This document shows positions 7,577 to 25,180 of a stretch of 37,842 nucleotides of DNA, one piece after another. The translations under genes were made by a program, and so were the position numbers. Under the pieces are notes generated by a model that was not told the origin of the DNA, did not search any database, and saw only the letters and a list, made by a program, of their open reading frames with translations. The DNA is from Actinomycetes bacterium (GTDB taxonomy: Bacteria; Actinomycetota; Actinomycetes; Streptosporangiales; Streptosporangiaceae): contig JAJYUU010000033.1 of the NCBI GenBank assembly GCA_021792405.1, positions 1 through 37,842 of the forward strand, given 5' to 3'. Numbering within the stretch: position 1 is the stretch's first letter; each line of letters opens with the position of its first letter.

Positions 7577-7583
7577 TCGACAG

Positions 7584-7615
7584 AGTCTAGAGCAAGCACC
7601 CGGCCACGTTGTCAA
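7584..7615 (-). promoter_or_regulatory. Predicted uxaC-uxuB promoter
   Basis: On the minus strand TTGACA (7615-7610) is a perfect -35 match. It is followed 18 nt later by TCTAGA (7591-7586), or 20 nt later by TAGACT (7589-7584). The end of TAGACT is 7 nt from the GTG of uxaC, so transcription would begin at or next to the start codon. The -35 box lies inside the LacI-type operator, which fits repression by promoter occlusion. Confidence 0.6.
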
Positions 7616-7627
7616 CCGGTTGCCACC
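7608..7627. promoter_or_regulatory. LacI-type operator O1 (uxaC side)
   Basis: GTTGTCAACCGGTTGCCACC contains a perfect 10-bp palindrome, CAACCGGTTG, with the central CG typical of LacI/GalR operators and partly symmetric flanks. Two closely related copies flank the other end of the regulator gene (8725-8739 and 8792-8811), and this recurrence supports a real site. Confidence 0.75.
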
Positions 7628-7661
7628 GGGCTAAACGGTTAACGCGTAAATTCTTTAGCCC
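7628..7661. repeat. Inverted repeat downstream of the LacI-type gene
   Basis: GGGCTAAA (7628-7635) and TTTAGCCC (7654-7661) form a perfect 8-bp inverted repeat with an 18-nt AT-richer loop, in the short gap between the regulator stop and the uxaC operator. It could be a weak terminator for the regulator gene or a second protein-binding site; I cannot tell which. Confidence 0.5.
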
Positions 7662-7672
7662 GAAACGGTGCA

Positions 7673-8704
7673 TTATCCTTCGCCTTGGCCGACAGCAGGC
7701 GGTCCGGTGGAGTCCCGGACAACGAGCCGCAGCTCGAATGGCGATACCTCCGGCAGCCTCGCTGGGCTGCCTTCGATCAGCGCGACAAGCGACTCGACCG
7801 CCCTCGCGCCGGCGTCTTCGAGCGGCGCGGCAACGGTCGTCAGCGCCGGAGTCGTCAGCTCGGCGCCGAAGATGTTGTCGAAGCCAGCGATGCTCAGCCG
7901 GCCAGGAACGGCGATGTCCTCCTGCCGCGCTTGCCGCAGCAAGCCGATGGCCATCAGGTCGTTGAAGGCAATCACCGCAGTCGCCGGCAAGAGCATGACT
8001 CGCTCCAGAGCTTCCGCGCCGCCGGCCATCGTGGGCGCCCGGCCGGGAATCTGGAAGACGTGCATCGCCCGGGGCGGCGCTAGCCGGACCAGCGCGGCCC
8101 AGCGCTCGCCGTTCACCCAGGAGGCGGCTGGCCCGGAGAGGTAGGCGACGTTCGCGTGCCCGCAGGCCCGGAGATGATCCAGCAGCTGGGCAACGCCGCC
8201 GGGTACGTCCGGGATGATCGAGGCCACGCCTGGCTCTGCCCGGTTGACGAGCACGATCGGCTTTGCGTGCGCGAACTGCCTGATCGGCTCGGCCGGCCCG
8301 CGCGTCGTCGCCAGCACTATCCCGTCCACGCTGGCCTGGATCTTGCGGAGCATCCTCAGCTCGGCCTCGCCGGACTCCTGCGATTCGGTGATGATCAGCG
8401 TGTAGCCCGCCGCGGCCGCGCCCCGTTCCGCCCCCCGGATGAGGCCGAAGACGACCGGGTTGGTGATGTCGGCCAGCATCAGTGCCAGGGTCATTCGCCG
8501 CCCGGTCGGCAGGGCCCGCGCCATCGGATTGATCTCGAACTCCAGGCGCTCGGCGGCCGCACGGATCTTCCGCTCGGTCTGCGCGCTGATCCGACCCGGC
8601 TTGTTCAGCGCGCGCGAGACCGTGGACGGGCTGACCTGCGCCAGCCGCGCTACGTCGTAGATCGTGGCCGGAGGCCGTGGTTCGTCGCTGACGGGGCCTG
8701 TCAT
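7673..8704 (-). CDS. LacI-family transcriptional regulator of hexuronate genes
   Basis: A 343-aa regulator. Residues about 13-65 form the LacI helix-turn-helix and hinge (TIYDVARLAQVSPSTVSRALNKPGRIS.. then NPMARAL). The rest is a periplasmic-binding-protein-like sugar domain, with the IAGFDN and LTTVAAPLEDAGARAVESLV segments of the family. It lies between uxaC-uxuB (same strand) and the divergent manD, and three near-identical operators lie at its borders, so it very likely represses both units and itself. The inducer should be a hexuronate or pathway intermediate (inference). The ATG at 8704-8702 is selected because GGGAG sits just upstream. The frame is open for 28 more codons, but that segment carries operators and is unlike the family N-terminus. 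Confidence 0.92.
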   Translation of the reverse strand: MTGPVSDEPRPPATIYDVARLAQVSPSTVSRALNKPGRISAQTERKIRAAAERLEFEINPMARALPTGRRMTLALMLADITNPVVFGLIRGAERGAAAAGYTLIITESQESGEAELRMLRKIQASVDGIVLATTRGPAEPIRQFAHAKPIVLVNRAEPGVASIIPDVPGGVAQLLDHLRACGHANVAYLSGPAASWVNGERWAALVRLAPPRAMHVFQIPGRAPTMAGGAEALERVMLLPATAVIAFNDLMAIGLLRQARQEDIAVPGRLSIAGFDNIFGAELTTPALTTVAAPLEDAGARAVESLVALIEGSPARLPEVSPFELRLVVRDSTGPPAVGQGEG

Positions 8705-8724
8705 GAGCTCCCTGCCCGCTTCGC

Positions 8725-8739
8725 GCAATCGGTTGACAA
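8725..8739. promoter_or_regulatory. LacI-type operator O3 (regulator side)
   Basis: In reverse complement this reads TTGTCAACCGATTGC and matches the core of the uxaC operator at all but one of 15 positions. It lies about 20 nt before the regulator's start codon, a position suited to autoregulation. Confidence 0.65.
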
Positions 8740-8791
8740 GTAACCTCTCCGCCGCCTGCCGCTGCCGCTTTGGCGCAGACGTTAGCATGCA

Positions 8792-8811
8792 ATTGTCAAT
8801 CGGTTGCCACT
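8792..8811. promoter_or_regulatory. LacI-type operator O2 (manD side)
   Basis: ATTGTCAATCGGTTGCCACT matches the uxaC operator at 17 of 20 positions, in the same orientation. It lies in the manD/regulator divergent region, 63 nt before the manD start. With the site at 8725-8739 the centre-to-centre distance is roughly 70 bp, so looping or cooperative binding is possible. Confidence 0.72.
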
Positions 8812-8874
8812 CGCAGGCGCCGAGCGGCGTGCAGCCCGTTTCCTGACGCGCGGGATCCCTGGAAGGGGCCAGTT

Positions 8875-10125
8875 TTGAAGATCGAGAAAGCGGACGTCAT
8901 CGTCACCAGCCCCGACCGGAACTTCGTGACGCTACGGCTGCAGACCGATGACGGACTCACCGGGCTCGGTGATGGCACCCTCAACGGGCGCGAGCTGGCC
9001 GTGGTCAGCTATCTGCGCGACCACGTTGTCCCGCTGCTGATCGGCCGCGACGCGTCCCGCATCGAGGACACCTGGCAATTCCTGTACCGCGGCGGCTACT
9101 GGCGACGCGGTCCGGTGACGATGGCCGCTATCGCGGCCGTGGACGTAGCGCTGTGGGACATCAAGGGCAAGGCCGCCGGGATGCCGCTGTACCAGCTACT
9201 CGGCGGCGCGTGCCGGACGGGGCTGCTGGCCTACGGTCATGCCAGCGGCGCTGACATTGCCGAGCTCACCGAGTCGATCCGGCGCCACCTCGAGGAAGGC
9301 TACCGGGCCATCCGCGTCCAGAGCGGTGTGCCCGGCCTGCACTCGGTCTACGGCGTCGCCTCGTCGGCGAATGCCAGGACAGGATCACAGGCCGGCACGG
9401 ATACCCGGTATGACTACGAACCAGCGCGGCGCAACGACGTGCCCGTGCAGGAAACCTGGGACACCGGCGCTTACCTGCGGCACCTGCCGTCGGTGTTCGA
9501 GGCCGTCAGGGCGGAGTTCGGTGCTGGGCTCCCGCTGCTGCACGACGCCCATCACCGGCTCACGCCCATCCAGGCCGCCAGGCTCGGCAAGTCGCTGGAG
9601 CCCTACGACCTGTTCTGGCTCGAGGACTGCACTCCGGCCGAGAACCAGGAGGCGCTGCGCCTCGTGCGCCAGCACACCACCATCCCGCTGGCGATCGGCG
9701 AGGTCTTCAACACCATCTGGGACTACCAGGTCATCGTCCGCGAGCAGCTCATCGACTACGTGCGCAGCGCGGTGACACACGCGGGCGGCGTCACGCACCT
9801 GCGGAAGATCCTCGACTACGCCGCTCAGTATCAGATCAAGTCGGGCATGCACGGGCCTACCGACGTGTCTCCCGTCGGCATGGCCGCCGCCCTGCACCTC
9901 GGACTGGCCATTCACAACTTTGGCATCCAGGAGTACATGCCGCACAGCGAGCGGACCAGCCAGGTGTTCCGGCAGTCCTGCACCTTCGAAGGCGGCCTGC
10001 TCCATCCAGGCGAGCGGCCGGGCATCGGCGTCGACCTGGATCTCGACGAGTCCGGCAAGTATCCCTACCAGCGTGCCTACCTGCCGTACAACCGGCTGTC
10101 CGACGGCACCATCCACGACTGGTGA
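8875..10125 (+). CDS. manD: D-mannonate dehydratase, enolase superfamily (ManD)
   Basis: A 416-aa mandelate-racemase/enolase-fold enzyme. The residues that define ManD can be placed: R147 (IRVQSGVPG) and Y159 (SVYGV) on the mobile loop, metal ligands D224, E250 and E276 ([23 protein letters not shown]), H226 two after the first ligand, H326 ([11 protein letters not shown]) and E353 (IQEYMPH). R147 and Y159 fall at the same numbers as in the structurally studied Novosphingobium enzyme, from memory. Reaction: D-mannonate to 2-keto-3-deoxy-D-gluconate plus water, replacing the unrelated UxuA. Start TTG at 8875 follows GGAAGGGG (8861-8868) with a 6-nt spacer; no ATG or GTG fits. Some family members also act slowly on D-gluconate, but the uxaC-uxuB neighbours favour mannonate. 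Confidence 0.93.
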
Positions 10126-10207
10126 GGCCGTGCTGACGACGCATCGCGCCGCCTAGCGCGCGGCCGGGCGCCCATGCTGCGAGCACCGCCGTGAGTGACG
10201 CGCCCGA

Positions 10208-10849
10208 TCAGGTTTCCGCCGCCCGCTTGTGCAGGACGACCAGCAGGGCGTAGGGGTCCGCGCCCTCGGGGACCTCGCAGGACAGGTACTCGTCGACGCT
10301 CGGGAACTTCGCCAGCATCGCCCGGATCTGCGCCATGAGTTCATCCAGCTGATCGGGCCGCAGCCAGACCGGCATCCGCGTCCCCTCCAGCAGGGCGCCT
10401 GGCCCGGCCTCGTCGACCTCGGCCGCCACGGCATCAAATACGGCCCGCAGCGTCCCGCCCGCGCTGGACATGGCGCCATCCAGGCGAGCGGATTTGCCGG
10501 TCGCGCGGTAGGGCTTCTCCACGGTGCCGCGCGGGCCCGGCCGTGACGGCTCCGCCGCCAGGAATCCGGTCTGGAGCAGCGTGCGGACGTGGTAGAGCAT
10601 CGTGGCCGGCCGCTGCCCGAGCGCGGCGGCCAGCTCGGAGTTGGTGCGCGCCTGGTCCAGGCAGAGCCGCAGCGCCCGGACCCGCAACGGGTGTGCGAGC
10701 GCCCTGGCCTCCTGCAGAGTCGCCCGGCGGCGCGTGGCAGGAGCGGCCAGGCCGACCGGATCAGCAGGCGGGCCGGCCGACTCGACCGCCGGAGCGGGCA
10801 CCGCGTCCCTGCCGCTGTTGACGGGCAGTGCCGCCGCTGCACTGGGCAT
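10208..10849 (-). CDS. ArsR-like winged-helix transcriptional regulator
   Basis: A 213-aa protein. After a Pro/Ala-rich leader of about 40 residues comes an ArsR-type winged helix (ARALAHPLRVRALRLCLDQARTNSELAAALGQRPATMLYHVRTLLQTGFL) and a longer C-terminal part that may bind ligand or dimerise. No metal-binding Cys pair is seen, so a drug- or metabolite-responsive repressor is more likely than a metal sensor. It is divergent from an MFS exporter with only 30 bp between the proposed starts, the classical repressor-exporter arrangement. The ATG at 10849-10847 lies exactly 6 nt downstream of TATCGT (10861-10856 on the minus strand) and has no ribosome binding site, consistent with leaderless translation. 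Confidence 0.85.
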   Translation of the reverse strand: MPSAAAALPVNSGRDAVPAPAVESAGPPADPVGLAAPATRRRATLQEARALAHPLRVRALRLCLDQARTNSELAAALGQRPATMLYHVRTLLQTGFLAAEPSRPGPRGTVEKPYRATGKSARLDGAMSSAGGTLRAVFDAVAAEVDEAGPGALLEGTRMPVWLRPDQLDELMAQIRAMLAKFPSVDEYLSCEVPEGADPYALLVVLHKRAAET

Positions 10850-10864
10850 GCCGCAACGATACCA

Positions 10865-10879
10865 GTTGACAACTGTCAA
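10865..10879. promoter_or_regulatory. Palindromic operator between the ArsR-like and MFS genes
   Basis: TTGACA-AC-TGTCAA (10866-10879) is a perfect 6+6 inverted repeat, and AGTTG-A-CAACT is nested in its left half. It lies directly between the two start codons, next to the regulator's TATCGT -10 and ending where the MFS reading frame is proposed to begin. One bound repressor could block both genes. Confidence 0.6.
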
Positions 10880-12223
10880 TTGATTGACGAAACTCAACCA
10901 GCGACCAAGGCCGGGAGAAAAGCTCTGCGCGGCGGCCTGCGGCTCAGCCTGAGCGGCAAGCTCATCGGCCAGGCCGACTTCCGCCGCCTGTGGGCCGGGC
11001 AGAGCATCAGCGAACTCGGCAGTCAGGTGACGGTCCTTGCCTTGCCGCTCGCGGCCGTGCTGGTACTGCACGCGTCGACCTTCCAGGTCGGCCTGCTCAC
11101 GACCGCCGGGTTTGCAGCGTTCCTCCTCGTCGGCCTGCCGGCGGGCGCGTGGGTGGACAGGAGACGGCGCCGGCCGGTCATGATCGCCGCGGACGTGGCG
11201 CGCGCCATTGCGCTGGGATCCATCCCAATCGCGTACGGGCTCGGCGTCCTCACCCTCTGGCAGTTGTACGCGGTCGCCTTCGTCACCGGCATCGCTACCG
11301 TGTTCTTCGACGTCGCCTACATGTCGTTCCTGCCTGGCCTGGTCGGCCTGGACAACATCGTGGAGGCCAACGCGAAGCTCCAGGTGACGGTCTCGCTGGC
11401 GCAGGTCGGCGGACCGTCGCTGGCCGGGTTCCTGATCGGCCTGTTCAGCGCCCCGGTGGCGTTCCTGGCAGACGCCGCAAGCTTCGTCGTGTCCTTCGGG
11501 TCGCTGGCATTCGTCCGTCATCACGAGCCAGCACCGCAGCGGTCCGAGGCACGCAGCCTGCGGTCGGACATGGCCGAGGGCCTGGCCTTCGTCGCGAGGC
11601 AGCCCATCCTGCGGATGATCGCGGGCTGCACCGCGACGTGGAACCTGTTCAGCTCCGCCGTCATGGCGATCGCCGTGGTGTTCCTGGTCCGCCAGGTCCA
11701 CCTGCACGCCGCCGCGATCGGGCTGCTGACCTCGATCGGCGCCGTCGGCGGCGTGGTCGGCGGGCTCACCGCCTCGCTGCTGCGCCGCAGGCTGGGCTCG
11801 GCTCGGATCATCTGGGTCGTCGCGGTCGCGACCGCGCCGTTCGAGCTTCTCATCCCGGCCACGTCGCCAGGGCCAGGGCTGGCGTTCTTCGCAGTGGCCG
11901 CGCTCGTGTCCAGCTTCGGAGCCGTGGTCTACAACGTCAACCAGGCCTCGTTCCGCCAGATCCTCTGCCCGCCCCGGCTGCTCGGCCGGATGAACGCGAC
12001 GATCCGGTTCATCGTCTGGGGCACGCTGCCGCTTGGCGGACTCCTCGGCGGCGCGCTCGGCAGCGCACTTGGCAACCGCAACGCCATCTGGATCTGCGCG
12101 GCTGGGGTGACCCTGGCGCCGCTCTGGCTGCTGGTCTCACCGTTGCGCCGGCTGCGGGACACCCCTGAACCAGCCGAGGGCTGGGACAGCGTGGGCCCGG
12201 CAGCGCAGCCAGCCGCTCCCTGA
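10880..12223 (+). CDS. MFS transporter (MFS_3 / drug-efflux type)
   Basis: About 447 aa with twelve predicted hydrophobic segments. The opening QADFRRLWAGQSISELGSQVTVLALPLAAVLV and the D-R-R-R-R-R-P loop after helix 2 (AWVDRRRRRPVMI) are typical of the MFS_3 group of exporters. The central RHHEPAPQRSEARSLRSD segment is the cytoplasmic loop between the two six-helix halves. Likely role: proton-driven export of a small molecule, repressed by the divergent ArsR-like protein. The start is uncertain. TTG at 10880 abuts the operator and has no ribosome binding site. CTG at 10925 has GGGAG upstream but is a rare start. The first in-frame ATG falls too late, after helix 2. Substrate unknown. Confidence 0.85.
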   Translation: MIDETQPATKAGRKALRGGLRLSLSGKLIGQADFRRLWAGQSISELGSQVTVLALPLAAVLVLHASTFQVGLLTTAGFAAFLLVGLPAGAWVDRRRRRPVMIAADVARAIALGSIPIAYGLGVLTLWQLYAVAFVTGIATVFFDVAYMSFLPGLVGLDNIVEANAKLQVTVSLAQVGGPSLAGFLIGLFSAPVAFLADAASFVVSFGSLAFVRHHEPAPQRSEARSLRSDMAEGLAFVARQPILRMIAGCTATWNLFSSAVMAIAVVFLVRQVHLHAAAIGLLTSIGAVGGVVGGLTASLLRRRLGSARIIWVVAVATAPFELLIPATSPGPGLAFFAVAALVSSFGAVVYNVNQASFRQILCPPRLLGRMNATIRFIVWGTLPLGGLLGGALGSALGNRNAIWICAAGVTLAPLWLLVSPLRRLRDTPEPAEGWDSVGPAAQPAAP

Positions 12224-12334
12224 CCGGCCGCCAGAAGTCTTCGATGTGCTGGGCGATCGGACACCGCACCCCTGCGCAGCGAGCTGGCGCGGCTGCCGCC
12301 CACGCTGACATTGATCCCGCATCCCACCCGGCTC

Positions 12335-12535
12335 GTCATCCTCGACGGGCCACCGGACTGCATCGGCTCGCGCAGTTGGCAGTGCTGTTGCCCAGATCGG
12401 CCACGGCCGGGGCGCCCACGTGATCGGCATCGAACGGGCCAGCCGACGCAGTCGGCGGCGTCACGACACTGGCCGCTCTGGCCTCGTTAGCCCCTCGCGG
12501 CAGGCTCGTGGTGCAGGCGGCCAGCGTTTTCCGAG
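12335..12535 (+). pseudogene. Relic of a quinone oxidoreductase / zinc-binding dehydrogenase
   Basis: Two short + strand frames resemble consecutive parts of a medium-chain dehydrogenase: GAHVIGIERA (end of the NAD(P)-binding beta strand) and, in another frame from 12445, DAVGGVTTLAALASLAPRGRLVV, which is like the VGG..L..L.P.GRLV block of quinone reductases. A frameshift separates them and both flanks are missing. The call rests on motif memory only. Confidence 0.45.
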
Positions 12536-12555
12536 ATTTGACGCGCCCGACAGCT

Positions 12556-12626
12556 CGATGATCTTGAATGGGTGTGACCTGACTGCTGCTACAGGAACAG
12601 CCAGGTCACATCCACGAAGATCATCG
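12556..12626. repeat. Long imperfect inverted repeat (71 nt)
   Basis: CGATGATCTT (12556-12565) pairs perfectly with AAGATCATCG (12617-12626). After a small internal loop, 12570-12581 pairs with 12602-12613 (11 of 12 Watson-Crick plus one G-T), and GCTG/CAGC extends the stem towards the apex. There is no T-run after it. It may be a remnant end of a mobile element or a structured RNA/terminator. Confidence 0.6.
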
Positions 12627-12689
12627 CGAACTGGTTGCTTCTGGTCAGGACGGCCGGCCCGGACGCCGCCGGTCTCGGCCTAGCGGCGA

Positions 12690-12714
12690 GCCGCAGCCGC
12701 CCCGTGGCTGCGGC
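12690..12714. terminator. GC-rich hairpin, possible terminator
   Basis: GCCGCAGCC (12690-12698) and GGCTGCGGC (12706-12714) form a perfect 9-bp stem with a 7-nt loop. There is no U-tract, which is common for actinomycete terminators. It lies upstream of vapB and could insulate it. Confidence 0.45.
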
Positions 12715-12795
12715 CGTAAACGCGCGACTGGCGGCGGCCCGGACAACGACATTACCTTGCTGGGCGGCTCAACCTCGCGCATCTTGATGCGTGAA

Positions 12796-12804
12796 TGCTA
12801 TGAT
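12796..12804 (+). promoter_or_regulatory. Extended -10 promoter of vapBC
   Basis: TGC-TATGAT is an extended -10 element (TGN plus a near-consensus hexamer, 12799-12804). The ATG of vapB begins exactly 6 nt later, so transcription should start at the A of the start codon. No good -35 box is seen, as expected for extended -10 promoters. Confidence 0.65.
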
Positions 12805-12810
12805 GACTGT

Positions 12811-13035
12811 ATGCGCACGACCGTTGACATTCCACCCGACCTTCACGCGCAGGTAGTGGCGATCTCCAGGGATACGCATCGGACGCTCAGCGAGACCGTT
12901 TCTTTCCTCATGCGCCGCGGACTCGGCGAGGGCCGCGCGGGCGGGCTGACGCACAGTGCGGCGACCGGGCTGCCCGTCGTTCGCCTCGGCAAAGTGATCA
13001 CCACCGAGGACGTCCGCGCACTGGAAGACGAGTAA
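12811..13035 (+). CDS. vapB: VapB-type antitoxin
   Basis: A 74-aa protein. The N-terminus (MRTTVDIPPDLHAQVVAISRDTHRTLSETVSFLMRRGL, read in two parts) is a ribbon-helix-helix DNA-binding domain: a beta strand, then two helices. The C-terminal tail (LPVVRLGKVITTEDVRALEDE) is the usual flexible toxin-binding segment that fills the VapC active site. It should neutralise the adjacent toxin and autorepress the operon with it. ATG at 12811 is chosen over upstream ATGs because the RHR strand begins there and the extended -10 sits 6 nt upstream. Its TAA is followed immediately by the GTG of vapC. Confidence 0.88.
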   Translation: MRTTVDIPPDLHAQVVAISRDTHRTLSETVSFLMRRGLGEGRAGGLTHSAATGLPVVRLGKVITTEDVRALEDE

Positions 13036-13437
13036 GTGCCGGCGGTACTGCTGGACGCCAACGTCCTCATCGCCCTGGTCGTTGATGACCACGTTCACCA
13101 CGGACACGCCGAAGCATGGTTCGCAGCGTCCGAGGCCGACTTCGCCACCTGCCCAGTCACCCAGGGCAGCCTCATGCGGCTCCTGATCCGCGAAGGCCAG
13201 AGCGCCGAGACGGCCCGTTCGGTACTGCAAGAAGTTACGAGCAACCCCCGCCACGAGTTCTGGCCCGACAAGGCCTCCTACCATGACATCCCGGTAACCG
13301 GGATCATCGGCCACCGCCAGGTGACCGACGCCTACCTGGCACATCTCGCACGGTCCTATTCCGCCCGGCTCGCCACGTTCGACCAGGCCATGGCCGGGCT
13401 CCACGCCGACGTTGCGGACCTGATCCCAGCCGACTAA
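13036..13437 (+). CDS. vapC: VapC-type PIN-domain ribonuclease toxin
   Basis: A 133-aa PIN-domain protein. The active-site acids visible are D7 (VLLDANVLIAL), D98 (HRQVTDAYLAHLA) and D116 (LATFDQAMA). At the position where many VapCs have a conserved Glu, the sequence is CPVTQGSLMRLL with Q43, a variant I also recall in this subfamily. Predicted to cleave a specific RNA (tRNA or rRNA in characterised relatives) when freed from VapB. The GTG start directly abuts the vapB stop, so the genes are co-translated. The pair is a standard type II toxin-antitoxin module in an unstable stretch. Confidence 0.9.
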   Translation: MPAVLLDANVLIALVVDDHVHHGHAEAWFAASEADFATCPVTQGSLMRLLIREGQSAETARSVLQEVTSNPRHEFWPDKASYHDIPVTGIIGHRQVTDAYLAHLARSYSARLATFDQAMAGLHADVADLIPAD

Positions 13438-13813
13438 CAGTCAGTCGGACCGGACCCGCTCATCGGCGTCAAGCAGCATGAGCCGGACCCCGCCCGACAC
13501 CGCGTGTCGCCACTGGCGGCGTTAGCATCTCCCGCGGATCTGCGCCGTCGTGATGCGGCCCAGTTGGTCCGAGCGGCCTGACGAAGCCCGCCGCCGCCGT
13601 CGCCGTCACCGCCACGTCCACGGTCGCGCCCGCCCTGGTGGTGCCGGTTACCTGCACCGACGCCGCGTCCACGGTGGTGCTCGGCCGGGTGAGGTTAATC
13701 GGCACATCCCCGCTGGCAGGCATTCCTAGAGTGGAGCCGCGATGTTAGCGGAATCTCAGGACGCCCGGTGAGAGCTGCAGGCAACCCATTCCAAGACGTC
13801 GTAACGTGGCCAC
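13438..13813. other. Gene-free interval after vapC
   Basis: About 375 bp. The only recognisable content is a minus-strand relic of an Ig-like/glucodextranase-type domain (13585-13723) and, at the right end, the -10-like TAACGT (13802-13807) placed 6 nt before the nucleotidyltransferase start. Confidence 0.55.
13585..13723 (-). pseudogene. Relic of a glucodextranase-B-like / Ig-like extracellular domain
   Basis: Minus-strand translation reads GDVPINLTRPSTTVDAASVQ followed by VTGTTRAGATVDVAVTATAAAG. This is the pattern of the all-beta domain found at the C-terminus of secreted glycoside hydrolases such as glucodextranases (V.VTGTT.PGATVDV). The reading frame dissolves into non-homologous sequence on both sides, and no catalytic domain remains. 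Confidence 0.5.
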
Positions 13814-14689
13814 GTGCGGGTGAGCGATACGACCTGGATCGACCGGCTGCCTGAGGAGATGTCAGGGCAGCGGATGCTGTTGCGCGGCCTGCTGTCCTTG
13901 TGCGAGGCCGATGAGAGCATCCGCTGGTTCGTGATCGGCTGCTCGGTGGCCCGCGGCGCGGGCGACTACCTGTCAGACCTCGACGTGGCCCTTGGCGTCC
14001 GCGACGACGACTTCGCGTCCGCGGTCCCGAGAATCCGGATGGCCGTGGACGGCCTCGGCGATCTGGTGGACAGCTATCAGCACCAGATCCCGTCCGTGAC
14101 GGCCGCCCACGTCCGGATCTTCGCCCAGTACGTCGACCGGTCCCAGGTGGACCTGGTGGTCTTTCCCGCCTCGGCCGGCAGCCAGCCTTTCGCCGGCGCC
14201 GTGGCCTTGTATGACCCGGACGGGCTGGTACGGACGCGTGCGCACCGCGAGCCGCCGACTGCTGCTCAGGTCCGGGAGTGGGCTTTCCACGGCTGGTGCG
14301 CCCTTGCCGATGTCGGCAAGTACCTGCGCCGCGGCTCGGCATGGGAAGCGCTCATCCAGCTGAACAACGCGCGCGACCAGCTGTGGCGCCTGAAGGCGGT
14401 CGCCGACAGCGTCCCTGATGCGCAATTCGGCGTGACCAGCGTGCTGGACTTCGCACCGGAGAGGGTCGCGCCGGACGTGGCGGCCACAGTCGCGGACCTT
14501 GACCTGGCCCGGCTGACGGCTGCCGCGCAACAGCTGGCGAGCCTGCTCAGCCAGCTCGGCCAGCAGCTGCCCCCAGCATTCCGCGCGGCCATGCCCGAGG
14601 CTATGGCCCGTTACGTGATCAACGACCTCAGCCAGCTGACATCTGCCGCGCAGGCGACTGGCCCGGCTCCAGAAGTATCTGCCTGCTAA
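13814..14689 (+). CDS. Nucleotidyltransferase-domain protein
   Basis: A 291-aa protein of the polymerase-beta-like nucleotidyltransferase fold. The signature is at residues 42-61: G-C-S-V-A-R-G-A-G-D-Y-L-S-D55-L-D57-V-A-L, with the two metal-binding aspartates. A third acid is likely in QVDLVVFP (about residue 116). The C-terminal 150 residues are helical (WCALADVGKYLRRG..LIQLNNARDQLWRL), as in aminoglycoside-adenylyltransferase-like proteins. The substrate is unknown; antibiotic or nucleotide modification is only a guess. GTG at 13814 lies 6 nt after TAACGT with no ribosome binding site, so it is likely leaderless; GTG at 13820 is the alternative. It is followed after 9 bp by the chimeric methyltransferase gene. 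Confidence 0.82.
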   Translation: MRVSDTTWIDRLPEEMSGQRMLLRGLLSLCEADESIRWFVIGCSVARGAGDYLSDLDVALGVRDDDFASAVPRIRMAVDGLGDLVDSYQHQIPSVTAAHVRIFAQYVDRSQVDLVVFPASAGSQPFAGAVALYDPDGLVRTRAHREPPTAAQVREWAFHGWCALADVGKYLRRGSAWEALIQLNNARDQLWRLKAVADSVPDAQFGVTSVLDFAPERVAPDVAATVADLDLARLTAAAQQLASLLSQLGQQLPPAFRAAMPEAMARYVINDLSQLTSAAQATGPAPEVSAC

Positions 14690-14698
14690 GGTCCGCCG

Positions 14699-15283
14699 AT
14701 GACCGACGACCCGTATCGTGACGCGGCGCTTGTCGAGTTGTACGACCTGGACAACCCCGGCGGCGGCGACCACGCCTACTACCGTGCGCTTGCCGACGAG
14801 ATCGATGCCGGGTCGATCATCGACCTGGGCTGCGGCACCGGGTTGCTGACTCGCGCGCTAGCCGGCGAACGTCGTACCGTGATCGGGGTCGACCCGAGTC
14901 GCACCATGCTCGACTACGCCCGCCGTCAGCCCGGCAGCGGGTCCGTGATCTGGATCCACGGTGACGCGTCAGCACTCCGGCACGATGGAAATGCCGACCT
15001 CGCCATCTGCACCGACAACGCGATCATGCACGTCAGCCCGGTGCCCTGGTGGCCGCAGGAGCGCAGGAACCCGACCCTGCACGCCGTGCTCGTGCACGAG
15101 ATCCAGGAAACCGCCCGGCACGCCGGGCACGCGGACATCATCAGGGAATACATCGACGGTGCCGTCGGCCTGCGCGAGGGCGTCAGCAACCTGCCAGCCG
15201 ATGCCGACGCCGCCACCTGGGAAGAGCACTACGCCAAGCTCGACCAGATCGCACGGTCGGTGTCGTCGGGCACCGCGTCGTAG
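14699..15283 (+). CDS. Chimeric protein: SAM methyltransferase N-half fused to DinB/DUF664 C-half
   Basis: A 194-aa protein that looks like two half-genes joined. Residues 1-105 are a class I SAM methyltransferase start: motif I I41-D-L-G-C-G-T-G, acidic GVD65PS, and D-A-S near 90 for adenine contact. The sequence then switches near residue 112 to a DinB/DUF664-type ending: VPWWPQERRNPTLHAVLVHE, then ETARHAGHADIIREYIDGAVG, with the metal-type His of the HAGHAD motif. Each half is incomplete: the methyltransferase lacks its later beta strands, and DinB lacks its first helices and first His. Either a deletion fused neighbouring genes or this is a selected novelty. ATG 14699 is preceded by TAAGGT at 14687-14692, overlapping the previous stop; it can be read as a -10 (6-nt spacing) or as an AAGG ribosome binding site. 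Confidence 0.78.
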   Translation: MTDDPYRDAALVELYDLDNPGGGDHAYYRALADEIDAGSIIDLGCGTGLLTRALAGERRTVIGVDPSRTMLDYARRQPGSGSVIWIHGDASALRHDGNADLAICTDNAIMHVSPVPWWPQERRNPTLHAVLVHEIQETARHAGHADIIREYIDGAVGLREGVSNLPADADAATWEEHYAKLDQIARSVSSGTAS

Positions 15284-15301
15284 CGCACCCGCAGCATCAG
15301 G

Positions 15302-18300
15302 TCAGGCGACGGCGGGCGGAACGGCGGGCGGGCGCCGCTCCAGCGCCTCCAGCGCCAGCCGGACCGCGGTGTCGAGCTGGGGGTCGCGGCCCGCGGCCCA
15401 GTCGTGCGGGGCGATTGCCACCTCGACGTCCGGATCCACGCCGTAGTTCTCCACGGCCCAGCCAGCGTCGGCGAACCAGAACGCGTACTTCGGCTGCGTC
15501 ACCCCGGTCCCGTCGACGAGTTTGTACTTCATGTCGATGCCGATCACGCCGCCCCAGGTACGGGTGCCGACCACGGTCGCGATGCCGTAGGACTTCAGCG
15601 CCTGGGTCACGATGTCGCCGTCGGACCCGGCGTGCTCGTCCGCGATCGCCACGACCGGCCCGCGCGGCGCTTCGGCCGGATAGCTGGACGGCTCGTCGTA
15701 CCGGGACACGTCCCAGCCGATGATGCGCCGGGCGAGCTTCTCGACCACCAGCTGCGAGGTGTGACCCCCGCCGTTCTCGCGCAGGTCCACGATCAGGCCG
15801 TCGCACCGGAACTCGGTGTGCAGGTCCCGGTGAAACTCCGCCCAGCCCGGCGACATCATGTCCGGGATGTGCAGGTAGCCGAGCCGTCCGCCGGACGCCT
15901 CGCTGACTGCGGCGCGCCGCCGGGCAACCAGGTCGTGATAGCGGGCCGCGTACTCGCTGGCCAGCGGGACCACGACAACCCGCCGGTCGGATCCGTCACG
16001 CCGCAGAGTCAGCTCCACCGGCTTGTCGGCCTTGCCGGCCAGCAGCGCGTTCGGGCCGAGGTCGCCCTCCACCGGCCGCCCGTCCACCGCGACGATGAGA
16101 TCGCCCGGCACGGCGGCGACGCCCGGCGCGGCCAGCGGGGAGCGCGCGCCGATCACCGACGACTCGCCGGGCAGGATTCGCGCGATCCGCCAGGCCCCGT
16201 CCCCGGTGCGGTCAAGGTCGGCGCCGAGCAGGCCCTGAGCCAGCGCCGGGTCGCCGTTGCCATCGGGCGGGATCACGTAGGCGTGCGAGCTGCCGAGTTC
16301 GCCGTGCAGTTCCCACAGCACGTCGTGCAAATCGTCGGTGGAGCCGATGCGATCGAGCAGTGGCCGGTAGCGGTCGGCCATCGCGGCCCAGTCCACCCCG
16401 GCCATGTCGGCGCGCCAGAAGTTGTCCCGCATCAGCCGCCACGCCTCGTGGTACATCTGGCGCCACTCGGCCGCCGGTTCAACCGTCATCCGGATCCGGT
16501 CCAGGTCGACGGTGACAACCTCCCCGTCCGGCCCGCTGGCATCCTGCTTGGCGCCGGTTGGCTTGATCTGCAGCGACTCCGCGTTCCGGTAAGCCAGCCG
16601 GGCCCCGTCGGCGGAGACCGCATAGTCGTCCAGGGCTTCTACCTCGACCGAGCGCTTGCGCTTGGCCAGGTCATAGCGGACCAGCCGGGACTTCGGGTGC
16701 TCCTCGGCCGCGCCGATCACGGCCTCACCCAGCTCCCCGGCGCGCGGTAGCTCGAGCCACAGCACGCCGTCCTTCGCCGCGCGGAGCTTGTCGTAGCGGC
16801 CGGCTTCCACCGGGAACGCCACGATCCGCTGCGCCAGCCCGTCGGCATCAAGACCGGCCGCTGGGGGTTGCGGATCGTTGCTCTCCGCCGCCGGGGCCTT
16901 TCCGGTGCCATCCGATTCCACCGGGCGGCCATTCAGCTCCGGAGCGAACGGCGACGGGGTCGTGGCCAGCAGCGGCACAAGGTACGGCCGGACGCCCGGC
17001 AGGAACCCGAGATCGAAGAGATGCGCGTCATACACCGGATCGAAGGCCCGGTTCGACAGGAACGCCAGGTACTTGCCGTCCAGGGTGAACGCCGGCGAGC
17101 TGTCGTCGAACCGGGGCGGGGTCACGTCGACGACAGTCCCGTCGGCCAGCCGCGCCAGCCGGATCTGCCCGCCGCCACTCTCCGGCCGCCACGGCTGCGA
17201 CCAGGCCAGCAGCGCCGAATCGGGCGAGAACGCCAGGCCCGTTACCTCGGCGTTGGCGCTGCGCGCGATCTGCGTGATCACCGGCTCACCGTCCAGGGCC
17301 ACCGTCAGCAGCCGACCGTCGGCGCACGCCACCGCCGCCGTGCGCCCGTCCGGGGCCACCGCCAGCTCCAGGATCCGGCCGAACTCGCCGTGCCCGAGCC
17401 GCCTCGCCGCCGAGCCGTCGGCGGGGATCAGATCCAGCCCGTCCTCGCCGCCGTTGTCTGACGCGCAGGCAACCGCGTCCGCGCCGGGGACCACCACCGC
17501 TAGCCGACCGCGCACGCCCGGCTCGGCGAGCAGAGTCCGGGCCGGCCCGTCCCGGCCCGGCAGCCAGTGCACGCTGCCGCGCACCTCGGCGCCAACCACC
17601 CGGCCAGTCGAGTCCAGCGTGAACGAGCCCAGCTGCGACTTCGCCGACACCGGATACGGGGTCCGTCCGGACCGGGCTCCGCTGAGCCGGACGTCCAGGC
17701 GCACCGGCTCGGCGTCCAGCGACTCCAGCAGCCAGATCTCTCCGGCCCGCTGGTAGACCACCCGCTGGCCGTCGGTCGTCGCGTGCCGGGCGTAATACTC
17801 GCCGAGATCAGAGTGACGGCGCAGGTCGCTGCCGTCCGGGAGCGCGGAGTACAGCGCGCCGGTCCCCTCGTGGTCCGACAGGAACACCACCCGTGGCCCG
17901 ACGAACATCGGATTCACCAGGTGATTGCCCACGCCGGCGAGGATCCGCGAGTACTGCGAGCCGTCCGGCGAGTACCAGATCTTGCCGCCGGTGCCGCCCC
18001 CGTAGCGCTTCCACCGGGCCGGCTCGGCATACAGCGGGCTTCCTACCAGCACCGCGCCGTCGCGCACCGTCACATCGCCCGTCGGCCCGTACTCGAGCCG
18101 ACGAGCCGGCCCGCCCAGCGGCACGGCGAACGCCCAGGTCTTCATGCTTGCGTGCTGGCCAGTCCCGCTGAGCACCAGCACCTCGCTGGCGCTGACCCAG
18201 CCGCGGACGGCGGTGTACCGGTCGCCCCAGTAGGTGAGCCGCCTGACCGGGCCACCGTCCACGGGCACCGCATACGCCTCGCGGGAGGCACCCCGCCCGA

Positions 18301-18523
18301 GCGACCGGGTGCCGTCGCGGGTCGAGGTCCAGGCGACGTGCGTCGCGGCCGGATTCAGCCGCGGATGGAGCACCGGGACTCGGTCAGCGGTCAGCCGCCA
18401 CGCCCGGCTGCCGCGACCACTCGCCGCCTCGCTCAGCGACGCGAGCCAGACATCGTCCTCAGCCGCGAACGTGATGAGATCGCCGGCCAGGTGGGGGTAG
18501 CGCAGGTAACAGGACTCAGCCAC
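15302..18523 (-). CDS. Tricorn-type protease (S41 family)
   Basis: A 1073-aa cytosolic protease. Residues 1 to about 500 are WD/TolB-like beta-propeller repeats (blades such as ..SPDGSQYSRIL.., ..LAFSPDSALLAWSQP.., FTLDGKYLAFLSNRAFDPVYD). A C1 helical segment, a PDZ domain (about 755-860) and the C-terminal tail-specific protease domain follow. The catalytic set is complete: S746-H747 (GSSHAYV), nucleophile S967 (DEHAGSDGD) and E1025 (GWAVENYG). These lie within two residues of the Thermoplasma enzyme's S745/H746/S965/E1023. No signal peptide, as expected. It degrades oligopeptides released by upstream proteases to short peptides. GTG start at 18523-18521 sits 6 nt after TAGGGT. It lies downstream of an amidohydrolase gene on the same strand (61-bp gap) and beside an S9 peptidase. 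Confidence 0.95.
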   Translation of the reverse strand: MAESCYLRYPHLAGDLITFAAEDDVWLASLSEAASGRGSRAWRLTADRVPVLHPRLNPAATHVAWTSTRDGTRSLGRGASREAYAVPVDGGPVRRLTYWGDRYTAVRGWVSASEVLVLSGTGQHASMKTWAFAVPLGGPARRLEYGPTGDVTVRDGAVLVGSPLYAEPARWKRYGGGTGGKIWYSPDGSQYSRILAGVGNHLVNPMFVGPRVVFLSDHEGTGALYSALPDGSDLRRHSDLGEYYARHATTDGQRVVYQRAGEIWLLESLDAEPVRLDVRLSGARSGRTPYPVSAKSQLGSFTLDSTGRVVGAEVRGSVHWLPGRDGPARTLLAEPGVRGRLAVVVPGADAVACASDNGGEDGLDLIPADGSAARRLGHGEFGRILELAVAPDGRTAAVACADGRLLTVALDGEPVITQIARSANAEVTGLAFSPDSALLAWSQPWRPESGGGQIRLARLADGTVVDVTPPRFDDSSPAFTLDGKYLAFLSNRAFDPVYDAHLFDLGFLPGVRPYLVPLLATTPSPFAPELNGRPVESDGTGKAPAAESNDPQPPAAGLDADGLAQRIVAFPVEAGRYDKLRAAKDGVLWLELPRAGELGEAVIGAAEEHPKSRLVRYDLAKRKRSVEVEALDDYAVSADGARLAYRNAESLQIKPTGAKQDASGPDGEVVTVDLDRIRMTVEPAAEWRQMYHEAWRLMRDNFWRADMAGVDWAAMADRYRPLLDRIGSTDDLHDVLWELHGELGSSHAYVIPPDGNGDPALAQGLLGADLDRTGDGAWRIARILPGESSVIGARSPLAAPGVAAVPGDLIVAVDGRPVEGDLGPNALLAGKADKPVELTLRRDGSDRRVVVVPLASEYAARYHDLVARRRAAVSEASGGRLGYLHIPDMMSPGWAEFHRDLHTEFRCDGLIVDLRENGGGHTSQLVVEKLARRIIGWDVSRYDEPSSYPAEAPRGPVVAIADEHAGSDGDIVTQALKSYGIATVVGTRTWGGVIGIDMKYKLVDGTGVTQPKYAFWFADAGWAVENYGVDPDVEVAIAPHDWAAGRDPQLDTAVRLALEALERRPPAVPPAVA

Positions 18524-18584
18524 AGGCCGACCCTATCCATGCACTGGCAAACCCGTCATCCGCATATCCATGGGCGGCCGCGGC

Positions 18585-19796
18585 TCAGGTGACGAGCCAG
18601 ACCCTCCGCAGCGCCGCCGGGTCGGACAGCGGGTCGCCGTGCACGAAGACAAGATCGGCCGGGCCGCCCTCCCTGATGACGCCGGCGTCCGGCTCGCCGA
18701 GGAGCTGCCCGCCGTTGCGAGTCGCCGCGGCCAGCGCCTGCCAGGGCTCCAGGCCTGCGGTGACCAGGCATTCCACCTCCCAGGCGAGCTGCCCGGCGCG
18801 CAGCGACCCGCCGCCGAAGTCGGTACCTGCCGCGATCAGCACACCGGCCCGAGCAGCAAGCCGCACGCTCTCGTGGGCCCACTCCCGGCGGGCGGCTATC
18901 TCCGCCCTGCGGGGCGGGTCCACGAATCGCGGCAGCATCGTGGTGCGGCTGAAGGTGCGCCACGACTCGAGCACGGCCAGGGTGGACACGAGCGCGACGT
19001 TGCCCGCTGCCATGAGCGCCGCCACGTCAGCGTCGAGCTGGAAGCCGTGCTCCAGGGCGTCGACCCCTGCCTGCGCGCCGACTCCCGCACCGGGCAGCAT
19101 CCCTGAGTGCGCAGTCACCCGTGCGCCCCGGGCATGCGCCGCCGCCACGACGGCTCGCACCTCGCTCACCGTGAACGGTGAGCACTCCCGGTCCGGCCCG
19201 TCGAGGTAAAGCTTGACCAAGTCGGCGCCGTCGTCGAGCTGCCCGATCGCCGCCGCCACCAGGCCGTCCCCGTCCCCGGCCTCGACCGACAGCCCGCCGG
19301 GAAGCGATCCCGCCCGCGAGATCCAGCAGTCGGCCGCCCGCACATACGGGTACTCGCGCCGCCCGGACCAGCGGTCGCGCACTCCGAGCGCGAGCGCCCG
19401 GTGACGCCCGTCCACCGGATCGTCGCCGATGGGCGAGCCGACGTCCCGCGCCCAGCGGACACCGGCGCTTCGCAGCAGCCTGGCGTTATGCTCGGCGACC
19501 TCGACCAGGCTGTGCGGCGGATCGAAACCACGATCGATCCAGTGCGCGCCGCCAGGCAACGTCAGATGACTGTGGCTGTCCACCATCCCGGCGATGACGG
19601 TCGAGCCCGAGGCGTCGACGACGACGGCATCGTCAGCAAGTGGCGGCTCGTCGCCCGCATCGCCGACCCATTCGATCCGGTCGCCGGCCACGAGGATGCT
19701 CACGCCAGCGCGCAGCTCCGGCCCGGTCCCGTCGGCCAGGGCGGCATCGCGGTACAGAGTGCGCGCGGCGCCGTCTGCGCTGAGGGCTGCCTTCAC
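18585..19796 (-). CDS. Amidohydrolase family protein (putative dipeptidase/prolidase type)
   Basis: About 403 aa, metal-dependent amidohydrolase fold. Visible are the VDSHSHL motif (H75 and H77), a lysine in DLVKLYLDG that could be the carboxylated bridge, the later His in VTAHSG and EHGFQLD, and the catalytic Asp in GTDFGGGS. Members near this type include Xaa-Pro dipeptidases and imidazolonepropionase-like enzymes; the tricorn and S9 neighbours favour peptide hydrolysis, which is inference. Two GTG starts are possible: 19826 and 19796. I prefer 19796 because TACCGT lies 7 nt upstream, with TTCGCA 17 nt further upstream as a -35. No ribosome binding site is seen for either. Confidence 0.85.
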   Translation of the reverse strand: MKAALSADGAARTLYRDAALADGTGPELRAGVSILVAGDRIEWVGDAGDEPPLADDAVVVDASGSTVIAGMVDSHSHLTLPGGAHWIDRGFDPPHSLVEVAEHNARLLRSAGVRWARDVGSPIGDDPVDGRHRALALGVRDRWSGRREYPYVRAADCWISRAGSLPGGLSVEAGDGDGLVAAAIGQLDDGADLVKLYLDGPDRECSPFTVSEVRAVVAAAHARGARVTAHSGMLPGAGVGAQAGVDALEHGFQLDADVAALMAAGNVALVSTLAVLESWRTFSRTTMLPRFVDPPRRAEIAARREWAHESVRLAARAGVLIAAGTDFGGGSLRAGQLAWEVECLVTAGLEPWQALAAATRNGGQLLGEPDAGVIREGGPADLVFVHGDPLSDPAALRRVWLVT

Positions 19797-19911
19797 GGGG
19801 GCAACGGTATCGGTCTTCTGACTCACTGCGAAGAGGGCTATGTTCGCATGAGGGCATATCTGGGCTCATGACCTGGGTGCTCGGTGGTCCAGCAGACGCG
19901 AGAGGCGGCAG

Positions 19912-21939
19912 ATGACAACGACGACAGGCACGCCAGCATTCATGGTTCCGGACGACATCGCCAGGCTTCGCCAGGTGGCGGACCCACAGGTGTCGCCCAC
20001 GGGATCGGCTGTCGCCTTCACGGTCAGCGACCCCGACATCGAGTCGAACACCTACCGGCGCCAGATCTGGCTCGCCCCGATAGATCCGGCGGACGGTCCG
20101 CCGCACCCGTTCACCGGTCAGGGCCATGAGGTCCTGCCTCGCTGGTCCCCCGATGGCAGGCAGCTGGCCTTCGTCTCCGCCCCGCCGGGAAGCGGCCCGT
20201 CGCAGATCTGCATCCTGCCAGTCGCCAGCGGAGGCGAGCGAATCGTCGTGTGCTCCTGGCACGGCCCCGTCACCGAGCTGGCCTGGTCGCCGGACGGCAG
20301 CCGGCTTGCCTTCGTGGCGCGCGACCCCGACGTCGGGCAGTACGGCAAGCCGGGGCAGCCGCAGGAGGGCAAGGACATGCCGCCGCGCCGGGTGACGCGC
20401 CTGATCTACCGGCTGAACGCGGCTGGCTGGACGCTCGACCGCCCGAACCGCATTTTCGTGGTGCCAGCCGATGGCTCCTCCGCCGCGCGGACCATCACGC
20501 CGGGGCCATTCCAGGCAGACGGCCTGGCCTGGTCGCCCGATGGCAGCAAGATCGCTTTCACGTCCGCGCGCCACGACACCTGGGACCTCGACCTCGCCAA
20601 CGATCTGTGGGTCACAGCAGTCGATGGGCCGTCTGAGCCGGAGCGCCTGACTGACACCGGATCGGTGTACGCGCGCCCGTCGTGGTCGCCAGACGGAGGG
20701 CAGCTGGCCTACTACGTCAACGCCACGCCGCTGGAGAACCCTCGCCACCGGCAGGTCGGCGTGCTCGAGCTGAGCTCCCGGCGGCAACAGGTCCTGACCG
20801 CGAGCCTCGACCGGAACTGCCAGCTGCTCGGGCTGAGTGTCGCGCCGTCCTGGGTCGGAGATCAGCTGATCTTCTCGGCCGAGGACAGCGGCAACGTTCA
20901 CCTCTATCAGGCGAAGGCCGACGGAACCGGGAAGCCGGAGATCATCGCTGGGGGCGAGCGCTGGGTGTCTGAGTGGGACTGGGCCGCCGGAACGCTGGCG
21001 TTCGTCTCCGCCACGCCCGCCAGCACGGGCGAGGTGTTCGTCAAGAGCCTCAGCGCGGAAAACCCGCAGGACAACGGGAACGGGGAGCATGCGCTCACCA
21101 GTCTCACCCAGCCATTCGCTCAGGCGATCAGCCTGGGCACTCCGCAGCGGTTCATCGCCCGTTCCCGCGACGGAAGCGAGGTGGAGTGCTGGGCAATTCC
21201 GCCCGCCGGAGCACGTGCGGGCCAGAAATACCCGACGCTGCTGAACGTGCACGGCGGGCCGTTCACTCAGTACGGCAACCGGTTCATGGATGAGTTCCAG
21301 CTCGAGGCCGCAGCCGGCTTCGGCGTGCTGTACTCCAACCCGCGCGGAAGCTCCGGGTACAGCGAGCAGTGGGGCCGCGCGGTGCGGTGGCCCGACTGCG
21401 CGAGCGACCCTGGCAGCGGATGGGGCGGTGTCGACTTCGAGGACGTGATGGCCTGCGTCGACGCTGCCTGCGAGCGATTCGACTGGATCGACCCGGCACG
21501 GCTGGGCATCCTGGGCGGCTCCTACGGCGGGTACATGACCTCCTGGGCGGTCGGCCACACCGACCGGTTCAAGGCGGCATGCTCGGAACGGGCCTGCAAC
21601 AACCTGACCACGATGGAGCACAGCGCCGACATCGCCGGGTTCATGCGGAGCTACATCGGGCGCGATCATCTATCGGCTCCGGAGGCGTACGCCCGGCACT
21701 CGCCAGTCACCTACGTCAACGACATGACGACTCCGCTGCTGATCCTGCACTCTGAAGACGACCTGCGCTGCCCGATCGCCCAGGCAGAGGAGCTCTTCGT
21801 CGCCTTGCGGCTGCTGGGCCGCGAGCCGGTGATGGTCAGGTTCCCAGCCGAGAATCACGAGCTCAGCCGTGGCGGGTCACCCAGGCACCGGATCACGCGA
21901 GCCAGCCTGATCCTGGACTGGTTCCGCGAGCGGCTTTAA
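19912..21939 (+). CDS. S9 family peptidase (prolyl oligopeptidase / acylaminoacyl-peptidase type)
   Basis: A 675-aa serine peptidase. The N-terminal 400 residues form a TolB/DPP-IV-like beta-propeller (repeats W-S-P-D-G-x-x-L-A-F at several points). The C-terminal alpha/beta-hydrolase carries the triad S537 (GGSYGGYM), D617 (LHSEDDLRCP) and H649 (AENHELS). It should cleave short peptides or remove acylated N-terminal residues in the cytoplasm. No signal peptide. ATG 19912 has GAGAGG six nt upstream. It is divergent from the amidohydrolase/tricorn genes and points towards the peptide importer operon 280 bp downstream, so it may feed on imported peptides. Confidence 0.94.
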   Translation: MTTTTGTPAFMVPDDIARLRQVADPQVSPTGSAVAFTVSDPDIESNTYRRQIWLAPIDPADGPPHPFTGQGHEVLPRWSPDGRQLAFVSAPPGSGPSQICILPVASGGERIVVCSWHGPVTELAWSPDGSRLAFVARDPDVGQYGKPGQPQEGKDMPPRRVTRLIYRLNAAGWTLDRPNRIFVVPADGSSAARTITPGPFQADGLAWSPDGSKIAFTSARHDTWDLDLANDLWVTAVDGPSEPERLTDTGSVYARPSWSPDGGQLAYYVNATPLENPRHRQVGVLELSSRRQQVLTASLDRNCQLLGLSVAPSWVGDQLIFSAEDSGNVHLYQAKADGTGKPEIIAGGERWVSEWDWAAGTLAFVSATPASTGEVFVKSLSAENPQDNGNGEHALTSLTQPFAQAISLGTPQRFIARSRDGSEVECWAIPPAGARAGQKYPTLLNVHGGPFTQYGNRFMDEFQLEAAAGFGVLYSNPRGSSGYSEQWGRAVRWPDCASDPGSGWGGVDFEDVMACVDAACERFDWIDPARLGILGGSYGGYMTSWAVGHTDRFKAACSERACNNLTTMEHSADIAGFMRSYIGRDHLSAPEAYARHSPVTYVNDMTTPLLILHSEDDLRCPIAQAEELFVALRLLGREPVMVRFPAENHELSRGGSPRHRITRASLILDWFRERL

Positions 21940-22131
21940 GCCGTGCGAAGTAGCTCGGCTGGCCGTCGGCGGCGTCATCTGCACCGCCGTCGGCCTCCGG
22001 TCAGGCAGCGACTCGGGACCGATCGAGCTCTGATGGCTACGCAACCGATAACAAACCGTGACACCGCTTCCTCTAGGCCCTGGGGCCAGAAGAGTTCTAC
22101 GCTTCGGTCAAGTTTTCTTAACTGCGCGAGT

Positions 22132-22143
22132 GCCACGCGTGGC
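22132..22143. promoter_or_regulatory. 12-bp perfect palindrome upstream of the peptide importer
   Basis: GCCACGCGTGGC is a perfect palindrome 80 bp before the first importer gene, in a 283-bp leader with an AT-richer stretch (22035-22125). It may be an operator for the importer. No -10/-35 pair is convincing. Confidence 0.35.
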
Positions 22144-22222
22144 GCTGCCAGGCAAGCGGGGCGGAACCGCAGGCCCGACTTCGGCAGGCGCGGCACAGCG
22201 TCAGTCAGCCAGGAGGAACGGA

Positions 22223-24097
22223 ATGAGACCATTTGCCCGCACGGGCGCCAAAGCGGCGATCCTCGCCGTCGTCGGCGCCACGGCGCTGGCCGCATGCGGC
22301 AGCAGCCCCAGCGGCGGCAACAGCGTTCAGCTGACCCCGAATGGCGCGTTCGGCAAGGTGCCGGCAGCGGCGCCCTTCGGACACGCCGGCACCATCACCG
22401 TGGCCGAGCCGCCCGGCGCTACGCCGACCTGGATCTTCCCGGTCACCCCCGGCGCGAACGGATCGGTGTACACCGCCTACTCGTTCCAGGCCGAGATGTG
22501 GCGCTACCTGTACATGTTCCCGGACGGCGCGCAGATCCAGGAAAACAAGCCGATGAGCCTGGCGAGCGACCCGGTCTGGAGCAACGGCGACAAGACCGTG
22601 ACAGTCACGATGAAGAACTGGAAGTGGTCCGACGGCCAGCCCATCACGGCCGCGGACGCCGAGTTCTTCGTCGACCTGACGAAGGCCGCAGTCAAGGTCA
22701 GCCCGGCCGACTACAGCCAGTACGTGCCGGGCGTCGGCATCCCTGACCAGGTCGTCAGCATGTCCACGCCGAACAGCCGGACGCTGGTGATGAACCTGAA
22801 CAAGGCCGTCAACCCGACCTGGTTCTTCGAGAACGAGCTTGCGGGCATCACCCCGCTTCCGGCACAGGCATGGGCGAGGGCGTCGGCGAACGGCCCGATC
22901 CTGGACTTCACCAACCCGGCGAACGCCCTGAAGATCTACAACTTCCTGGCTGCCCAGTCGAAGTCGACCGGGACCTACGCCAGCAACCCGCTGTGGCAGG
23001 TGGTCGACGGGCCGTACAAGCTGACCTCGTTCAACAACACCACCGGCGCGTACACCATGGCGCCGAACACCAGCTACAGCGGCCCGCACGCGCCGACGAT
23101 GTCGACGCTGCAGGCAGTGCCGTTCACCTCCGACACGGCGGAGTTCAACGCAATCAAGTCTGGCAGCATCGACCAGGGCTACCTGCCGTTCACCGACCTG
23201 CCGCAGGTGAACTCGATCGAGAGCACGTACAACGTCTTCGGGTACCCGGGCTTCGGCTTCAGCTACGTGACCTACAACTTCAAGGACACGACCGGAGACT
23301 TCAACAACATCATCAAGCAGCTGTACTTCCGCCAGGCGTTCGCGCACCTGGAGGACGAGCAGGGCTACATCAAGGCGTTCTTCCACGGCGCAGGAGGCCA
23401 GGACTTCGGTCCGGTGCCGCAGGTCCCGCCGAGCCCGTACACCCCGGCGAACGCCAAGACGAACCCCTACCCGTTCAGCGTCTCGACCGCGGCTAGCATC
23501 CTGAAGGCGCATGGCTGGACCGTCAACCCCGGCGGTACGGACGTGTGCAGCAAGCCGGGTACGGCGAGCAACGAGTGCGGCTCGGGCATCCCGGCCGGCA
23601 CCAAGCTGGCGTTCAACCTGATCTGGAACACCAGCCCGGCCATCATCGGCCAGCAGATCACTGACCTGGTGGACCAGGCGAAGAAGGTCGGCATCAACAT
23701 CACGCTGAAGTCCGACAACTTCAACCACATGATCGCCACCTACTACGACGTGGCGCAGCCGAAGAACGACAACCTGTGGGCGATGGAGGACTTCGGCGGG
23801 TTCAGCATTGCCAGCTACCCGACGATGAACGGGATCTTCAACAGCACCGGGACGTACGACATCGGCGGGTACGCCAACCCGGAGGCCGACAAGCTGATCG
23901 CCGCTTCCACGACCAGCAGCAACCCCGCTGCGGTGAAGGCCGAGGCAGCGTACCTGACCCAGCAGCAGCCCAGTCTCTTCCAGCCGTCGGTGGACAACAT
24001 CGAAGTGTGGAAGAAGACGATCTCCGGGCCGCCGGCCTCGTTCGAGTCGCTCACCCAGTACCAGCTCAGCCCCGAGTTCTGGTACTTCACCAAGTAG
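22223..24097 (+). CDS. ABC transporter peptide-binding lipoprotein (family 5, DppA/OppA-like)
   Basis: A 624-aa extracellular solute-binding protein. The N-terminus has a basic region, a hydrophobic core (AAILAVVGATALA) and a lipobox ending LAAC at about residue 25, followed by a Gly/Ser linker, so it is a membrane-anchored lipoprotein. The body has the family 5 pattern: TVTMKNWKWSDGQPITAADAEFFVDL, the TLVMNLNKAVNPTWF segment, and VDGPYKLTSFNNTTGAYT. It captures di- or oligopeptides outside the cell and passes them to the permeases downstream. ATG 22223 has a strong AGGAGG six nt upstream. A stable hairpin follows the stop, which fits higher expression of the binding protein than of the permeases. 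Confidence 0.94.
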   Translation: MRPFARTGAKAAILAVVGATALAACGSSPSGGNSVQLTPNGAFGKVPAAAPFGHAGTITVAEPPGATPTWIFPVTPGANGSVYTAYSFQAEMWRYLYMFPDGAQIQENKPMSLASDPVWSNGDKTVTVTMKNWKWSDGQPITAADAEFFVDLTKAAVKVSPADYSQYVPGVGIPDQVVSMSTPNSRTLVMNLNKAVNPTWFFENELAGITPLPAQAWARASANGPILDFTNPANALKIYNFLAAQSKSTGTYASNPLWQVVDGPYKLTSFNNTTGAYTMAPNTSYSGPHAPTMSTLQAVPFTSDTAEFNAIKSGSIDQGYLPFTDLPQVNSIESTYNVFGYPGFGFSYVTYNFKDTTGDFNNIIKQLYFRQAFAHLEDEQGYIKAFFHGAGGQDFGPVPQVPPSPYTPANAKTNPYPFSVSTAASILKAHGWTVNPGGTDVCSKPGTASNECGSGIPAGTKLAFNLIWNTSPAIIGQQITDLVDQAKKVGINITLKSDNFNHMIATYYDVAQPKNDNLWAMEDFGGFSIASYPTMNGIFNSTGTYDIGGYANPEADKLIAASTTSSNPAAVKAEAAYLTQQQPSLFQPSVDNIEVWKKTISGPPASFESLTQYQLSPEFWYFTK

Positions 24098-25159: not shown

Positions 25160-25180
25160 TCGCCCGGAAGGGAGGCCACC

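Follow-up and report, generated by a model that had tools for sequence, protein, structure and literature searches.

An in-frame chimera of methyltransferase and mycothiol-S-transferase gene parts in a Streptosporangiaceae genome, most likely a recent deletion relic

Introduction

Mycothiol-S-transferases (MST, the current name of Pfam family PF04978, previously called DUF664) belong to the DinB / S-transferase-like superfamily. In the M. tuberculosis MST, the metal-binding residues are located on helices 2 and 8 (PMC10950700). Class I SAM-dependent methyltransferases (Methyltransf_25 / Methyltransf_11) have a seven-stranded Rossmann-like core, with motif I and an acidic loop after strand 2. 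The third relevant group consists of in-frame fusions by deletion, i.e., fusion relics or truncated pseudogenes, in which the DNA between co-oriented neighbours has been deleted, with almost no homology at the junction. The locus described here shares these properties and differs from such fusions in nothing except the particular genes involved. It was found in a contig of 37,842 nucleotides (the window, i.e., the whole stretch of DNA that was analyzed).

Results

A relative from the window's genus, G004, was used as the parental reference; its contigs C90 and C142 cover the locus. A methyltransferase gene copy in contig C26 of the window's own genome served as an additional comparison. The features of the locus are as follows:

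14699..15283, + strand: chimeric open reading frame (ORF), 194 aa, frame intact from ATG to TAG
14699..15040, + strand: 5' part of a class I SAM-methyltransferase gene, codons 1-114 (Pfam Methyltransf_25; DNA identity to the C26 copy and G004:C90)
15041..15283, + strand: 3' part of a mycothiol-S-transferase (DUF664/DinB) gene, equal to codons 118-192 of the intact G004 gene (Pfam MST; identity to G004:C142)
15040..15042, no strand: probable deletion junction, with only base 15041 common to both parents (three-way junction comparison)
13814..14689, + strand: upstream gene, family unknown, 83% identical in G004, at the same position before the methyltransferase remnant
15302..18523, - strand: tricorn-type S41 protease gene, convergent with the neighbouring ORF; its G004 counterpart is 95% identical and lies next to the intact MST gene

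The translation of the ORF contains no internal stop codons. An AAGG ribosome-binding-like sequence is located 7 bases 5' of its ATG, and a gap of 9 bases separates this start from the stop of the upstream gene, which has no Pfam or NCBIfam match and is nucleotidyltransferase-like by eye only. When the two halves were matched to profiles separately, Methyltransf_25 was found on residues 40-114 (E = 1.3e-14, profile positions 1-79 of 97) and MST on residues 106-154 (E = 7.6e-13, profile positions 102-149 of 149), each match exceeding its own Pfam curated cutoff. The ORF is an in-frame chimera, whose residues 1-114 derive from a class I SAM methyltransferase and whose residues 115-194 form the C-terminal end of an MST protein. 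The preliminary description had proposed such a chimera of methyltransferase and DinB/DUF664 halves, with methyltransferase motif I, an acidic motif and a frame open through the join, and it was borne out on each of these points (DLGCGTG and GVDPS are both in the ORF). The boundary needed correction: the join had been placed near base 15030, about 11 bases off, and the DNA comparison starts the C-terminal part at residue 115.

This comparison, with the C26 copy and with G004:C142, puts the join at base 15041, between codons 114 and 115. The left side (14697-15039) has 77% DNA identity to the methyltransferase gene copy G000:C26:2832-3172, and the right side, from 15041, has 93% DNA identity to G004:C142 from base 1891. 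The C26 copy suggests an original length of roughly 246 codons for the methyltransferase gene, of which approximately half is present here. The junction letters are CACGTCAGCCCGG/AGGAG in the left parent, GGGACCG/TGCCC in the right parent and CACGTCAGCCCGGTGCCC in the window, with a junction homology of 1 bp or less. The parents share a single base, 15041, at the join, which makes homologous recombination unlikely. The C26 copy (L040 2834-3572) is itself split over two frames by a 2-bp frameshift and looks broken, too.

Both parent genes were found in G004, in the same orientation, ~3.5 kb apart and at the same locus as the chimera. Window positions 2436-12224 and 13781-14704 match C90 with 92% and 88% identity, respectively, and positions 14994-15041 (98%) match directly after the latter segment; positions 15041-28321 match C142 with 93% identity, and the match resumes from 28484. 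The final 141 bases of C90 are exactly the initial 141 bases of C142, an overlap that is expected of k-mer assembly, and the two contigs are therefore neighbours. The distance between the breakpoints in G004 is 3,510 bp, and this interval contains a short remaining tail of the methyltransferase, genes for a GNAT acetyltransferase and, on the opposite strand, a nitrilase-methyltransferase, and MST codons 1-117. The intact G004 MST gene has 192 codons, starts at C142 base 1540 and covers positions 2-149 of the 149 in the Pfam MST profile. The G004 methyltransferase copy is without an equivalent of window positions 14705-14993 (289 bases) and without a proper end. Because the G004 interval carries scars of its own, the ancestral length of the deletion is uncertain. 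The end of the G004 copy (L059 16064-16329, G004:C90) is replaced by DNA that is 89% identical over 135 bases to contig C286 of the window's genome.

Sequence searches of the window's genome (98.4% complete) detected no full-length or close match to the intervening G004 DNA; the genome holds only more distant copies of nitrilase (69%) and MST (68%) and the 135-base piece at C286 (89%). A scan of its contigs showed two loci that match the MST part alone. In another genome, G202, a full MST gene lies beside the tricorn-type protease gene, with a nitrilase gene beyond it. Because G004 and G202 carry an intact MST gene at this place, the truncated state is derived. The left side of the locus was also sought in G202, and no methyltransferase counterpart was detected. 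Two more genomes (G003 and G001) have intact MST genes on contigs that share only this gene with the locus. Relative to G004, G202:C233 (L082 1738-3274) contains a 1.5 kb insertion between the MST and nitrilase genes. G202 is filed under a different genus, yet it is 92-96% identical to G004 at this locus, which may reflect horizontal transfer or a foreign contig in the G202 assembly.

The region upstream also differs in length between the two genomes: window positions 12225-13780 (~1.56 kb) correspond to 18 bases in G004. The region seems to acquire insertions and deletions readily, the chimera being one more scar of this kind. The window segment carries a VapC-type PIN toxin gene (13036-13437) and a small, antitoxin-like ORF upstream of it.

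Sequence searches of 60 relatives, 299 genomes of the family and 347 genomes of the order (the latter largely overlapping the family set) detected no other match spanning the join; the matches fall on one side of it or the other. The one long match, in G303 (query 4-107), proved on inspection to be an ordinary methyltransferase. Within these genomes, the same join was thus found in no other genus, and on this basis the idea of an established two-domain family was rejected. Related methyltransferase and MST genes are divergent neighbours on opposite strands, ~1-1.2 kb apart, in G019, G008 and G006 (L044 6154-8390, L045 4589-6838, L046 169-2671), and this neighbourhood is possibly a conserved pairing. 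The MST gene of G004 is likewise divergent from the nitrilase-methyltransferase gene. Fusion from such a divergent pair was considered and rejected, because the matching methyltransferase remnant of G004 is on the same strand as MST.

Both domains of the chimera are incomplete. AlphaFold2, run with a shallow alignment, predicted four strands (residues 39-43, 60-65, 83-87 and 101-104) and none past residue 104, in agreement with the preliminary suggestion that the methyltransferase fold is cut before its last strands. Confidence was ~85-93 at residues 31-90, low from residue 107 on and 31-36 at residues 111-160; the low values of the C-terminal half are partly due to alignment depth. Compared to class I methyltransferases, residues 1-114 retain DLGCGTG and the acidic residue after strand 2 (GVDPS), but the chimera stops after strand 4, and strands 5-7 and the substrate region are absent. 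Compared to the MST family, residues 115-194 give an ungapped alignment with the final 75 codons of intact MST genes from the same genus, but the first 117 residues are missing, and with them most of the four-helix bundle. Of the metal site on helices 2 and 8 (two His, one Asp), the RHAGHAD motif of the C-terminal helix is kept, and the helix 2 side was in the deleted 117 codons. A PDB sequence search with the intact G004 MST found no match. If the chimera is made at all, from the message of the upstream gene, it would be expected to have neither methyltransferase nor thiol-transferase activity. Because both domains are incomplete, the ORF is most likely a non-functional relic.

We polarised substitutions in 70 MST codons using G004 and G202. 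The window lineage has 4 replacement and 1 silent changes, compared to 3 and 2 in the G004 lineage and 0 and 5 in the G202 lineage. The window-lineage replacements include V134E and S151Y; E and Y are absent from these positions in all four relatives that were compared. The dN/dS of the MST part versus G004 is 0.5, a tiny comparison that includes time before the fusion, and that of the neighbouring protease gene is 0.16; the replacement excess in the MST part has a p value of 0.024 (Fisher test). Intact MST genes of the genus reach dN/dS of up to 0.48 in some pairs. For the methyltransferase part versus the C26 copy, dN/dS is 0.21, mostly reflecting pre-fusion history. Given these small numbers and the values of the intact genes, the substitution pattern is a suggestion rather than proof of relaxed constraint on the MST part. 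The share of single substitutions that would create a stop codon in the ORF is about 2.8%; therefore, an open frame is expected without selection at such an age.

Discussion

We consider a single local deletion of ~3.5 kb, as measured in G004, to be the origin of the chimera, with a probability of about 0.9. It would have removed the methyltransferase gene's end, the genes that followed and MST codons 1-117, fusing the front half of one gene in frame to the back 40% of the other. The event likely belongs to the window's lineage and postdates its divergence from G004, with end joining or another type of illegitimate recombination as the probable mechanism, and the chimera would be a young fusion relic on its way to decay. 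The co-oriented parents at one locus in a relative, together with the loss of the DNA between them, are what a fusion by local deletion is expected to leave, and they uphold the earlier proposal of a recent deletion that fused two neighbouring genes.

The open frame and the ribosome-binding-like sequence in front of it are evidence against a relic, as is the dN/dS of the MST part, which is 0.5 and not 1, tiny though this comparison is; the 0.21 of the methyltransferase part points the same way but mostly reflects pre-fusion history. Together with the intact motif I for SAM binding (DLGCGTG) and the likewise intact RHAGHAD motif of MST, the frame and the ribosome-binding-like sequence would fit a maintained new two-domain protein, e.g., a non-catalytic SAM- or metal-binding regulator, the other option raised in the preliminary description. 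This is very unlikely: the join did not recur in the searched genomes of the family and the order, both folds are cut through, the origin is recent, changes in the MST part lean toward replacement, and, after so short a time, the frame would be expected to be open even without selection. Very unlikely, too, is the version in which a fusion gene only just created by the deletion already encodes a product with a selected role. An assembly artefact, in the form of a false contig join between two loci or of an omitted segment, should be considered because the window's genome is fragmented (314 contigs). However, both sides of the join lie at one G004 locus, and this synteny, together with the contig overlap, rules out an assembler join of distant loci. 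In addition, the junction homology of 1 bp compares poorly with the long shared words that k-mer assemblers need to mis-join, and searches did not detect the omitted DNA in other parts of the assembly; an artefact therefore has very little probability.

The chimera is most likely an ordinary recent genomic scar rather than a novel type of protein. It cleanly illustrates how a local deletion produces an in-frame chimera, which automated annotation would label as a methyltransferase or a DinB protein. Its chief value is caution in annotation; it is also an event that can be dated, in a genus that still preserves the arrangement of the parent genes.
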